Positions 74-64,000 of a DNA stretch of 64,000 nt are shown here, one piece after another. The notes under the pieces were generated by a model. That model was not told the origin of the DNA and searched no databases. It worked only from the letters and a program-made list of their open reading frames with translations. Position 1 is the first letter of the stretch; each line of letters begins with the position of its first letter. Source of the stretch: Tetradesmus obliquus (lineage: Eukaryota; Chlorophyta; Chlorophyceae; Sphaeropleales; Scenedesmaceae). A program made the translations under genes and the position numbers. Location of the stretch: the NCBI GenBank assembly GCA_030272155.1, contig CP126203.1, positions 1,612,001-1,676,000 of the forward strand, given 5' to 3'.

Positions 74-3000
74 CCCTCCGTCCCAAAACCCTGGGGGCCG
101 TGCAGCGCCAGCATGCAGCGTGCCGCACTGCTCAGGCTGCTGCAGCTGCGTTTCCTGAGGCTTGATGAGGCAGGATGTGCCTCGGGGGTTGATGCGGGTG
201 ACCAGCAGGGGTGATGGTGACTGGCTGTGCGGCCCTTCGTACAGCCACAGGCTGCCTGCAGCAGGAAGGGGATCATGACAGTGTTACTGATTGTTACATT
301 GTTACTGTTATAATATAAGCGTAACTAGTGACAATCAGCTGCACTGATGCGGGCGACCAGCAGGGGTGATGGTGACTGGCTGTGCGGCTCTTCGTAGAGC
401 CACAGACTGCCTGCAGCACATAGGGGATCATGACAGTGTTACTGATTGTTACATTGTTACTGTTGTAATGTAGGCGTAACTGGTGACAATCAGCTGCACT
501 GATGCGGGTGACCAGCAGTGGTGATGGTGACTGGCTGTGCGGCCCTTCATACAGCCACAAACTTCCTGCTGCGGACAGTGTGCAGAGCTCGATGACATCG
601 TGCTTTGTGTTCGACTAATGTGCACGAATGTGCATGGCTGCTGTTCGCTTGACTCGAGATGCGGTGTGTGGAAGAACGGCATGTGCAACCCTCCAGTTTT
701 GCTTCAATTGTGTGTGAATGTGACATGGCGTCACCATTCCACCCGTACTGGTATACAAAGGTGAGCACCATCTGCAGCTGCCATACCAGCTGTACTGCCA
801 GCCGGCAGTACTGCCATGCCAGCTGGCAGTACTGCCATACCAGCTGCCATGCCAGCTGGCAGTACTGCCCTGCCAGCCGTGCTGCTGCAGAGGCCTAAGC
901 CTCAACTTACCCAGGAGCTGCAGACCTGCCTGGGTTGTCACTCACTACGCAGATGCTGCAGCTGCCATGCACCATAGCATGCACACGTACCTGTGTTGAT
1001 CAGCGCAGTGAGAGCCAGCTCTGTTCGCTCAGCCCCCTGCTTCTCATACCGGGCATAGTCAGTCCAGTAGGCGATGAGCTGCAGTGTCAGCAACAGCAGC
1101 AGCAGCAGCAGCAGCAGCAGCAGCAGCAGAGAGTTAATGTGAGTCCCGCGTGTCTGCCTGTTCACTCTCTGCTCCTCATACCGGGCATAGTCAGTCCATT
1201 AGGCAATGAGCTGCAGCAGCAGCGGCAGCAGCGTGCAGGTGAGAGCAGCAGCAGCAGCAGCACCAGCATGATTGCTTGGCGATTTGCATGTTGCTGTGGG
1301 ACCTTTGGCATTTGCTTCAAAACATGCACACCAGATCAGCAAAATGGGAGATCATTTCAGCGTCTGTTTTAACAATGAAACAACCCTTTGCCCCGCACTC
1401 ACGTCTGTGACAAAGTAGGCAACCTCAGCAGCAACGTCCGCTTCTCTCTGCGGCTGCTGTGCATGGTTTCCGGAACTGTGGCTGCTGAGCAAAGCTGCCG
1501 GGTAGCAACACCACACTTCACCTACCTGGCTTTGATCCGAAAGAGCCGCAGTGGGGTGGTGAGAAGGAGACAGCATAAGCAAAAAATAAAATCCCACACC
1601 CCAAAATCATTGAAGTAGGCCACTTCAGCAATGAAAATGATTCCTTTTTTGATGACTCACGTCTGTCACAAAGTAGGCCACTTCAGCAGCAACGTCCGCT
1701 TCCCTCTGTGGATGCACCGGCTGCATCTGCACAAAGGCCATGGGCGGGTAATCATGCAAATTGCCATGGTAGCATGCCGCCTTTTGCACATCATATGCGG
1801 TCCACACAGGCACCCAAAAGTAGGTGGCGCCGCGGTATGCTGCCCACTTTGGCAGGGCGTAGAGTACTGCGCCGGTGGCTGAGAAGGGATCGTCGGGGCA
1901 GTTCTGGACGTAAGATATGAAGACACCATCTGGGAGTACAGCGCAGTGTACAGCAGCATGTTTAATTTAGTCCAAGGTTTGGAGGTGCATAGAGTACTGC
2001 ACCGGTTGCTGAGAAGGAATCGTCGGGGCAGTTCTGGACGTAAAGATATACAGCCGCCATCTGCGTACTGTTTGGCTGCGCGCATGTGATGTTTGATGAT
2101 TTAGCAGTTGCCGTAATACAAACCCACATTCTTTGCACACTGCAATATAGTAGATCTGTGTGTGCAGTGCAGCTGCACAGCCGTCCCAAGCCATGGCCGT
2201 TGCCTCTATCAACCCCGAACTGTCTAGCAATACAGCCGTGTTTGATGCGCACCTGTGTTGTATGACACCTGTGTGTGCAGCGCAGCCGGGTAGCCGTCAC
2301 ACACCATTGGGGTGGATTGGGTGACCTCTGCCGCAAAGGAGTACAGCAGCCAGCCGCCCAGCGCTGATGATGTCGAAGAAACAGCCAGCAGGATCTGGTT
2401 TGCATCACCACCACAAACAGCAGTCAGCAGGAACCTGCGCAACAAGACAAAGCAGCAACAGTAAGAGAGTTTCAACAAGGAGTACAGCAGCCGGCAGCCC
2501 AGCGCTGATGACTTGGTGCTCACAGCCAGCAAGATCTGGTTTGCATCTCCACCACAAACAGCAGTCAGCAGGAACCTGCGCACAAATAAAAAGCAGCAGC
2601 AAAAAGAGGTTCAATAAGGAGTACAGCAGCCTGCCGCCCAGCACTGATGACGGTGAAGAAACAGCCAGCAAGATCTGGTTTGCATCTCCACCACACACCG
2701 CAGTCAGCAGGAACCTGCGCAACAACAGAAAGCAGCAGCAAAAAGAGTTTCAACAAGGAGTACAGCAGCCGGCCGCCCAGCGCTGATGACGTGGTGTTCA
2801 CAGCCAGCAGGATCTGGTTTGCATCTCCATCACAAACAGCAGTCAACAGGAACGTGACAAACAACCAAGACAACGACACAAGCCACCAGGCACTTCAGTT
2901 TAAGACAAGGCTCACCTGCCCACCAGCTTATCATACGTAGCAGACGGCGAGAAACATCCTCCGCTGCACTGCGGCGCCACCAGCATGAAAAACAACCAGG

Positions 3001-63300: not shown

Positions 63301-64000
63301 CTCACGTTGAGCACACTGCCCACAGCCACGCCGCGGATGCGCACCTGGCAGCAGCAGCAGCAGCAGCAAGCAGCGAAGGTGAACATGGAGCCGCCAGTGC
63401 CTTGATGATAGCAGCTAGCACTGCAGTAGCTGTCAGCCACCTGTGGTGCTGCATCATGCACTGCCTCCTGCAGTTCCCCTGCCACCTGTTGCTTGTACTG
63501 CTGCTGGTATGTGCAACCTGCACTGCCACATGCACCATCAATTGTACTTCCACCCGTACCGCCACTCAGAGGGGTGCCGACAGTGCTACCGCAAGCCAGC
63601 GGGCACTTGAACGTGGCCTGCAGTGCCTGAGGCATGCGCCTTGTACTGCCGCTACCGTGCTCGAAATGTAGTGCCCCTTGCACCGTGTATATGTGCTGCT
63701 ACTAGCATGTGCCATCTGTACTGCCGTCACTTGTACTGCTGCCACTTGTTCTGCCACTCACAGGAGTGCCGACTGTGATGCCACAAGCCAGTGGGAACTC
63801 GATGGTCGAACTGGCACAGAGGCACTGCCATACCCACGGTAAGTAAAATGACATCTAAGCTGCCACCTGTACCTAGCTCGCACAGGAACTGCCACACATA
63901 CTGCCACGTGTACTGCTAGCTATACCGCAAGTTGTACTGCCACCTGTACTGCCACATCTGTTGCCGCTCACCGGAGTGCCGACTGTGATGCCACAAGCCA
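60396..64000 (-). CDS. TGD2: TGD2-like chloroplast lipid-transfer protein, MCE domain (5' end outside window)
   Basis: Exons join in phase: 63344-63267, 62609-62494, 62037-61899, 61109-60993 and 60662-60396 (TGA). The preceding exon (…EFPLACGITVGTP, donor GTGAG) is at ~63815-63771 or repeated at the right edge. The MCE/MlaD signature ACGITVGTPVRIRGVAVGSV is clear, followed by IPRNSVIEANQSGLIAEPLV, the cysteine-bearing VCNAGHIRGQQGVALDDMVY and a long helical end (TLEHVESISADVSVFSRDTG, LITALSRIIEE). Order and spacing match plant TGD2, the substrate-binding subunit of the TGD1-2-3 ABC importer that brings lipid from the ER to the inner plastid envelope. The N-terminal membrane anchor and transit peptide lie beyond 64000. 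Almost every exon edge is echoed. Confidence 0.88.
60847..61255 (-). repeat. 3' and 5' echoes of TGD2 exon 61109-60993
   Basis: 60905-60847 repeats the exon end (LEEATVLTKDITPLLQ plus GTGCGG). 61249-61210 repeats the exon start (ESIDKFFEVA) after TTTGCAG. Another partial copy lies near 61380-61330. Confidence 0.85.
61640..61800 (-). repeat. 3' echoes of TGD2 exon 62037-61899
   Basis: 61795-61760 repeats MTRMTRQMEE plus GTAAGA. 61672-61635 repeats MVYGMTRMARQMEV. The true donor is at 61898. Confidence 0.85.
62041..62175 (-). repeat. CTG tract and 5' echo of TGD2 exon 62037-61899
   Basis: Sense CTG triplets (62041-62070) abut the acceptor. 62145-62075 copies the exon start (ASPLQVAACEDEAAIVCN) nearly exactly. 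More CTG triplets lie farther upstream. Confidence 0.9.
62350..62410 (-). repeat. 3' echo of TGD2 exon 62609-62494
   Basis: Resembles the exon end (ADITQLLPSPDD compared with VDITPQLPLPEY) followed by GTGAGG. More diverged than most echoes. Confidence 0.6.
62700..62870 (-). repeat. two 5' echoes of TGD2 exon 62609-62494
   Basis: 62747-62700 and 62867-62812 repeat VNDIGTVIPRNSVIEAN after CTGCAG. The first carries extra bases in the C run that break the frame; the second is clean. Spacing is about 120-140 bp. Confidence 0.9.
63055..63190 (-). repeat. two 3' echoes of TGD2 exon 63344-63267
   Basis: 63190-63162 and 63086-63058 repeat LDKVDVLVE (one with a D-to-G change) plus GTGAGG. The true donor is at 63266. 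Confidence 0.88.
63565..64000 (-). repeat. repeated ACGITVGTP exon end of TGD2
   Basis: The edge PLACGITVGTP plus a donor occurs at 64000-63972 and 63805-63771, and degenerate at 63606-63571 (PLACGSTVGTP). The region between has short repeats of the CTGTACTGCCACTTG type. Which copy is the real exon cannot be settled inside the window. Confidence 0.75.

Follow-up and report, generated by a model that had tools for sequence, protein, structure and literature searches.

The locus and its genes

The stretch analysed here (the window) is 64,000 nt of the green alga Tetradesmus obliquus, G000:C13:1612001-1676000 in an assembly (G000) of 104.7 Mb in 17 contigs, and the results below are drawn from the sequence of that one assembly. 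Its genes are accompanied by exon-edge echoes, which are short copies of an exon's start or end placed in the adjoining intron or past the stop codon. The window and the comparison stretches reveal, as a pattern, a genome rich in local direct duplications, with units mostly of 95-155 bp and some of them fresh, and in such units the intron part ceases to be recognisable before the exon part does. Three of the genes in question are matched by close relatives:

7.5-10.29 kb: FKBP gene, 96% to protein P0001 over the query
26570..34240, minus strand: gene H, orthologue of Tetradesmus obliquus A0A383W9H0 (P0121), 11 exons, checked exon by exon against that protein
60396..63830, minus strand: gene K, encoding TGD2 (Mce/MlaD domain), 97% to P0221; all six exons examined have copies, 14 copies altogether

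The gene H protein differs from A0A383W9H0 at 5 of 522 residues, with intron-split codons read by eye, and copies lie beside 10 of its exons; the first exon stood outside the query set, and the self-comparison list described below has no pair there. Relatives of FKBP and TGD2 in one eukprot source are named gene7432 and gene7426 (P0002, P0222), naming that suggests a conserved neighbourhood of the FKBP (8672-10290) and TGD2 genes in another alga. Just upstream of an FKBP acceptor stand 32 CTG triplets (9242-9338), and CAG/CTG runs are common throughout the window.

Local direct repeats in the window and beyond

A sequence-only reading of the window had described exon ends copied with their splice sites into the neighbouring intron, and that such echoes are real was borne out by self-comparison. 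With simple repeats masked and a score of at least 22, 133 direct pairs were found, 125 of them within 3 kb, as against 3 inverted pairs, of which 1 lay within 3 kb; the 125 include a 52-bp array at 23.1-24.4 kb, and pairs inside arrays are not independent. The pattern extends beyond the window, as in 17 of 20 other 10-kb stretches two or more direct pairs lay no more than 500 bp apart (171 such pairs in total), compared with 18 inverted pairs at any distance. Inspection of 47 block-type pairs showed sharp edges, many of them at CTGCAG/TTGCAG or GTGAGC/GTAAGG. All nine places or ranges that the reading had named (8553, 9789, 12508, 16239, 18690, 27136-27595, 30325-31110, 32888-33208, 62700-62867) contain a copy, and its estimate of at least 40 copies was fair, 48 being listed in the window with fixed frames. 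The further statement that copies carry their own splice sites applies to many of them, but coding ends without any splice site are copied as well, with the stop codon retained. Echoes are not evenly spread along the chromosome. The interval from about 34.5 to 59.8 kb contributed just 11 rows of local pairs to the self-comparison list despite long coding open reading frames, in gene models that are unconfirmed.

Three kinds of sequence were set aside in parts of the analysis. The 52-bp array was dropped from the block-pair inspection, the frame tests, the splice-motif test, the size counts and the coding score, and CAG/CTG-rich blocks were dropped from the best-of-six-frames test, the automatic-frame codon tests and the coding-score test. 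A long imperfect repeat array of uncertain frame on contig C5 (positions 7352-9902, L024; 13 pairs) was dropped from the later counts outside the window, namely those of codon position, splice motif, size, whole units and coding score.

Curated copies

For a curated set of copies, reading frames were fixed with the help of relatives or of the parent exon, and exons were aligned to their surroundings: 10 of the 11 exons of gene H, two of FKBP, three of two further window genes, six of TGD2, and seven of Rpt3, a gene on contig C5. Copies with fewer than 25 aligned bp were left out (one 19-bp match was dropped). The set comprises 65 copies of 25 exons in six genes, or 3,779 aligned bp. Of these, 48 copies of 21 exons lie in the window (34 of 15 exons in genes other than TGD2, and 14 of the six TGD2 exons), and 17 belong to four exons of Rpt3, with up to five copies at one edge (exon R5); Rpt3 exons R2, R4 and R6, among the seven aligned to their surroundings, gave no copies. 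The places in the window are as follows, with identities as percentages:

2336..4321, minus: whole-unit arrays of about 113, 139 and 235 bp in the window's first gene; gene model unconfirmed
8547..8586, plus: start copy of the exon at 8672 (FKBP), preceded by a CTGCAG acceptor of its own; 40 bp, 98%, offset 119; its one coding difference is synonymous
8672..8745, plus: FKBP-type isomerase exon whose start is copied; frame agrees with P0001
9628..9699, plus: FKBP exon whose end is copied
9788..9829, plus: first copy of the exon end at 9699, donor GTGAGC; 95%; coding part 36 bp, two of two differences synonymous
9894..9941, plus: second copy of the exon end at 9699, donor GTGAGC; 88%; four of six coding differences non-synonymous
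about 12476-12512 and 12554-12637, minus: two copies of the exon edge 12313-12396; no relative confirms the gene model
16242..16287, plus: start copy of the exon at 16431, with acceptor; 98%
16612..16673, plus: copy of a terminal coding end, including the retained stop codon; 95%
18694..18777, plus: exon-end copy; 93%; differences by codon position 1, 0, 5
19191..19233, plus: exon copy with a GTGCG donor; 93%; three of three differences at third positions
25870..26503, minus: terminal coding end of gene H, copied four times; 93, 88, 79 and 70% outwards; stop codon in the first three
27077..27594, minus: four start copies of exon H9 (26912-27018); 76, 90, 90 and 71% outwards
28836..29025, minus: two end copies of exon H6; 94 and 82%; a frame-shifting gap in the outer one
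29308..29358, minus: start copy of exon H6 with TTGCAG; 98%; single difference, synonymous
30961-31109, 30822-30900, 30578-30694 and 30320-30436, minus: four end copies of exon H4, donor GTAAGG or GTGAGG; 97, 91, 94 and 91%
31472..31548, minus: start copy of exon H4 (31167-31389); 87%; acceptor lost (CTGCTG)
31997..32040, minus: start copy of exon H3; 95%; flank z 10.5, the flank being triplet-repeat-rich
32886..33212, minus: two end copies of exon H1 (33323-33497); 95 and 97%; eight of eight differences synonymous
62678..62870, minus: two start copies of exon K2 (TGD2); 91 and 88%
63052..63192, minus: two end copies of exon K1 (TGD2); 100 and 97%

Exon starts were copied 30 times and exon ends 35 times among the 65, and 64 of the 65 match just one part of their exon; exon E3, whose 43-bp limits were set by hand, supplies the exception. 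Three terminal exons have copies lying past the stop codon, and the five checked of the six such copies retain it (at 26458, 26263, 25980, 16612 and 60238). Since stop-codon ends are copied, neither a splice site nor splicing is required for copying.

Unit size and origin by tandem duplication

The offsets between nearest pairs have a narrow distribution. Of 213 such pairs in 314 kb of window and outside sequence, from which two array stretches were excluded, 127 have an offset of 100-159 bp, 28 an offset of 220-279 bp, with a second peak near 250 bp, and none one of 280-339 bp. In 5-bp bins, 132 of the 190 pairs with offsets of 60-300 bp fall at 95-154 bp, beyond which the count falls, and the peak at 100-159 bp takes in 37 of 60 window pairs and 90 of 153 pairs from elsewhere. 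How such a unit arises can be illustrated by a fresh case, L021:2627-2959 on the minus strand, in which two full units of 137 bp, which match without a difference across 196 bp at this offset, are accompanied by a third exon start. The three exon starts are identical and so are the two 78-bp intron pieces, but the upstream intron of the outermost copy differs; the 137-bp unit shows that intron and exon are duplicated together. Because the pairs are direct and local, the unit is narrow in size and a fresh whole-unit case is at hand, short tandem duplication is well supported as the origin of the copies, and from the pattern we infer a rate of duplication behind it. Decay is graded, the nearer copy being the more similar in 31 comparisons as opposed to 14 in reverse, and the nearest copy is the most similar in just 8 of 17 arrays. 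As to the cause of the size, a guess derived from work on paired-nick repair is that opposite-strand nicks, maybe flanking a nucleosome, are followed by fill-in repair.

The exon part outlives the intron part

If the whole unit decayed evenly, near-identical pairs should match across the whole unit. This is so in only 8 of the 29 pairs with 95% identity or more; in the other 21 the match spans less than 85% of the unit. Flanking sequence (60 nt) gave a similarity z of at least 3.0 in 9 of 34 exon-copy pairs (the window set without TGD2) and fell below 3.0 in the other 25; the nearer of the two H1 end copies is among the places where intron similarity is retained (z 8.1). The blocks that persist also resemble coding sequence. 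Outside the window 31% of 96 short blocks passed a coding score, compared with 10% of random segments and 16% of the blocks' own spacers (Mann-Whitney p 3.5e-11 and 3.7e-5, respectively), and in the window 41% of 44 blocks passed as against 8 and 5%, with a score trained on some of those same exons. The whole-unit pairs, 5 and 13 in number, are few and by their median score not coding-like. Donors at block edges are enriched in the window, with 16 of 71 blocks against about 3.

Codon positions of the differences

The position of differences within codons changes with the age of the copy. The youngest copies, 23 with 93% identity or more that together comprise 1,379 bp without gaps, have 8, 5 and 43 differences at the first, second and third positions, a third-position share of 0.77; the 26 copies of 85-93% identity have 36, 30 and 93 (0.58), and the 16 copies below 85% have 54, 45 and 91 (0.48). 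The young and old copies differ in third-position share with a Fisher p of 1.2e-4. A null in which the copy mutates freely and the exon only silently, at an equal rate, predicts a share of 0.47-0.51 for CpG factors of 1, 5 and 15. CpG hypermutability was accordingly rejected as the source of the excess, as it raises the expected share no higher than that range when exon and copy change at equal rates. In families with two or more copies, changes found in one sequence alone fall 3, 0 and 10 at the three codon positions in young copies, 12, 12 and 23 in copies below 85%, and 1, 0 and 6 in the exon. A weak test, taking the best of six frames, gave 0.512 for block pairs compared with 0.441 when permuted, and 0.426 compared with 0.379 for whole-unit pairs. 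No third-position excess emerged from the first automatic framing of pairs outside the window, in part because the C5:7352-9902 array dominated it.

Duplication, proposed exchange and the alternatives

The findings above are perhaps best accommodated by a combination of duplication and exchange. Local direct tandem duplication, with units mostly of 95-155 bp, would supply the copies; a duplication would be tolerated if one of its breaks fell in non-coding DNA, so that the exon, the splice form or the stop codon stayed intact and the surplus exon end came to sit in the intron or past the stop codon. The intron part of the unit fades before the exon part, which may persist through unequal recombination or conversion with the exon across the exon segment that the two share. 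Since each exchange would put letters of the copy into a working exon, damaged copies would be indirectly selected against in a large population, and copies too diverged or too distant to exchange would decay as ordinary non-coding DNA. That duplication and exchange-maintained exon parts explain the echoes is judged probable, if by no great measure.

Three observations, all in small numbers, suggest that copies and exons exchange sequence. The outermost copy at L021, with an identical exon segment and a different upstream intron, is what exchange between exon segments would be expected to leave. In Rpt3, a copy three units away (C5:43278) differs from its exon at one site, and two nearer copies differ at seven each. 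Lastly, three of the residues that distinguish P0121 from gene H (194, 262 and 268) lie in copied stretches, and at all three a copy carries the P0121 residue: Y at the H4 start, S near the H4 end and R at the H5 start (residues 79 and 80 are uncovered by copies). At the S site P0122 carries G, an indication that S is the derived residue.

Several points weigh against this account. Were silent change in the exon about ten times faster than change in the copy, the null would rise to 0.78-0.83, although such a difference in rate is held unlikely. The codon signal leans on gene H, because without that gene the young copies give 17 of 26 differences at third positions (p 0.08), and the pattern was noticed in gene H before being tested there; TGD2 supplies merely 3 young differences. 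Once the C5 array had been dropped, automatic framing beyond the window put 22 of 36 young differences at third positions (p 0.12), and the other classes gave 0.48 and 0.43. The unique changes in copies of 85-93% identity look neutral (8, 6, 8). Splice motifs at block edges outside the window are barely enriched by a crude test (donor 15 of 205 and acceptor 77 of 205, compared with about 9 and 71). Two of the three strain-matching residues, Y and R, may reflect copies that retain an older state. Finally, the account leaves the unit size of 95-155 bp without a cause.

The simplest alternative, and the one the sequence-only reading had proposed, is recurrent tandem duplication followed by plain neutral decay, in which the exon parts of copies seem better kept since the exon itself hardly changes and searches favour the best-kept stretch. 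Its duplication component is sustained by the direct orientation, locality and size of the units and by the fresh whole units at L021, as is graded decay, and copies below 93% identity lie near the neutral third-position share (0.58 and 0.48). Neutral decay by itself is insufficient, because partial-unit matches make up 21 of the 29 pairs of at least 95% identity, flanks are similar in only 9 of 34 pairs (z below 3.0 in 25), and young differences are mostly at third positions, 0.77 as opposed to about 0.5. With the interallelic origin described next it is one of the two main contenders, and is itself regarded as doubtful.

Mostly synonymous young differences and sharp-edged divergence in the introns would also be expected if the copies were pieces of a diverged functional allele or strain, either recombined beside the exon or assembled end to end from a mixed or heterozygous culture, and the presence in copies of residues from another T. 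obliquus sequence fits such an interallelic origin. It does not, however, predict up to five copies per edge (as at Rpt3 exon R5), frame-shifted or heavily decayed copies, a fixed unit size or identical fresh units, and P0121 and gene H are just 5 of 522 residues apart, so that this origin appears unlikely.

A functional role for the copies, as alternative exon ends or as decoy splice sites selected for splicing regulation, is more improbable again. Splice signals are retained beside many copies and young copies are conserved in a coding-like manner, but the splice edge is on one side only, stop-codon ends are copied too, and the 57 nt separating exon H4 from its first copy contain no AG outside the donor. 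The sequence-only reading had seen in the copies ready-made alternative exons, and this part of it was not supported: the candidate role as whole alternative exons was rejected because 64 of the 65 copies are one-edged, and the copies are not present in the proteins of the three close relatives (P0001, P0121 and P0221), which run straight through the exon junctions. On the account of duplication and exchange the copies would be by-products and not expressed exons. Splicing-coupled or RNA-templated copying, by reverse splicing or by repair from spliced RNA, would suit the many block edges at splice sites in the window (donors at 16 of 71 blocks), but it was rejected as very improbable because copies contain the first intron bases and occur at stop codons, and the fresh whole-unit case at L021 duplicates the intron too.

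If duplication and exchange do operate as proposed, a wider reading can be put forward, more tentatively than the account itself: that unexpressed exon fragments are long kept free of protein-changing mutations by recombining with the exon, and that introns form a renewed stock of spare exon ends, fed genome-wide by duplication of about 95-155 bp and able to return variants to the gene. Exchange, if true, would make selection on unexpressed DNA testable and would offer strains a route to gain protein variants. Scaled up from 213 nearest pairs in the 314 kb sampled, the genome would hold tens of thousands of pairs; short tandem duplication would then be a main contributor to the growth of introns in this alga, would confound gene prediction, and would amount to a natural experiment on the frequency with which copied exon edges become exons. 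The narrow unit size would in turn provide a handle on the DNA repair or replication step behind it.

Relation to known systems

Internal gene duplication, treated by Gao and Lynch in 2009, is said to be frequent within genes and to affect exon-intron structure, reportedly without arrays of decaying exon ends at fixed spacing.

The sequence-only reading knew of no named description of the pattern, and this has to be qualified. Tandem duplication across an intron-exon boundary was published for a potato RdRp gene (Ma, Lan and Niu 2016, PMC4974935). The potato unit, as in the alga, joins the 3' part of an intron to the 5' part of the next exon, and the copy inherits splice signals; unlike in the alga, a single gene underwent a single duplication, whose copy came to be spliced as an exon and was accompanied by a new intron. 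The algal case has many events, involves both exon edges as well as stop-codon ends, has a narrow unit size, and its copies are not in the proteins of the three relatives. No account of the pattern at this scale, with this size and with coding-like persistence of copies, was found in a literature search beyond whose reach most subscription papers lay, and no genome was described there in which it is pervasive. The type of event is known from single cases, and its genome-wide scale, its size and the coding-like persistence of copies are new so far as found.

Rogers-type AGGT intron gain, in the available part of a review (PMC3443670), is similar in that a short intragenic tandem duplication is tolerated as splicing removes the surplus. 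The classic AGGT unit, however, is exonic and creates a new intron, whereas the algal units straddle existing boundaries and sit in existing introns. That model was rejected for the alga, where spacers are less coding-like than blocks and inspected copies end at existing exon edges. Introners (PMC9860276, as far as its accessible text goes) likewise reshape introns on a genome scale, but they represent one element in many genes, whereas an algal copy derives from the adjoining exon. Introner-like insertion was rejected at one locus, where a 401-bp FKBP intron-exon query matched in G000 only itself and two neighbours, with very common words skipped. Tandem mutually exclusive exons of the Dscam type are similar in forming arrays of like exons in one gene, and according to the available portion of PMC3236188 they are alternatively spliced, whereas the algal copies are one-edged fragments; such an array was rejected because whole-exon copies with both acceptor and donor are absent in 64 of 65 cases.

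Other features of the window

A candidate element of about 390 bp at 6500-6915 has inverted terminal repeats of about 35 bp with CATAGTGA flanking each end, and looks like a non-autonomous DNA transposon with an 8-bp target duplication. The 52-bp-unit array mentioned above is degenerate and 1.3 kb long (23100-24430), and an AC dinucleotide run of 59.5 uninterrupted copies lies at 54379-54497. Within the region of few echoes, two similar proteins with FRNNSPRAV-type sequence are encoded at 39.1 and 46.0 kb; neither has a Pfam match, and none of the six proteins in that Pfam run did. A PDDEXK_6-domain gene lies at 57000-57774 (Pfam, E 2e-22; one of six proteins matched in that run).

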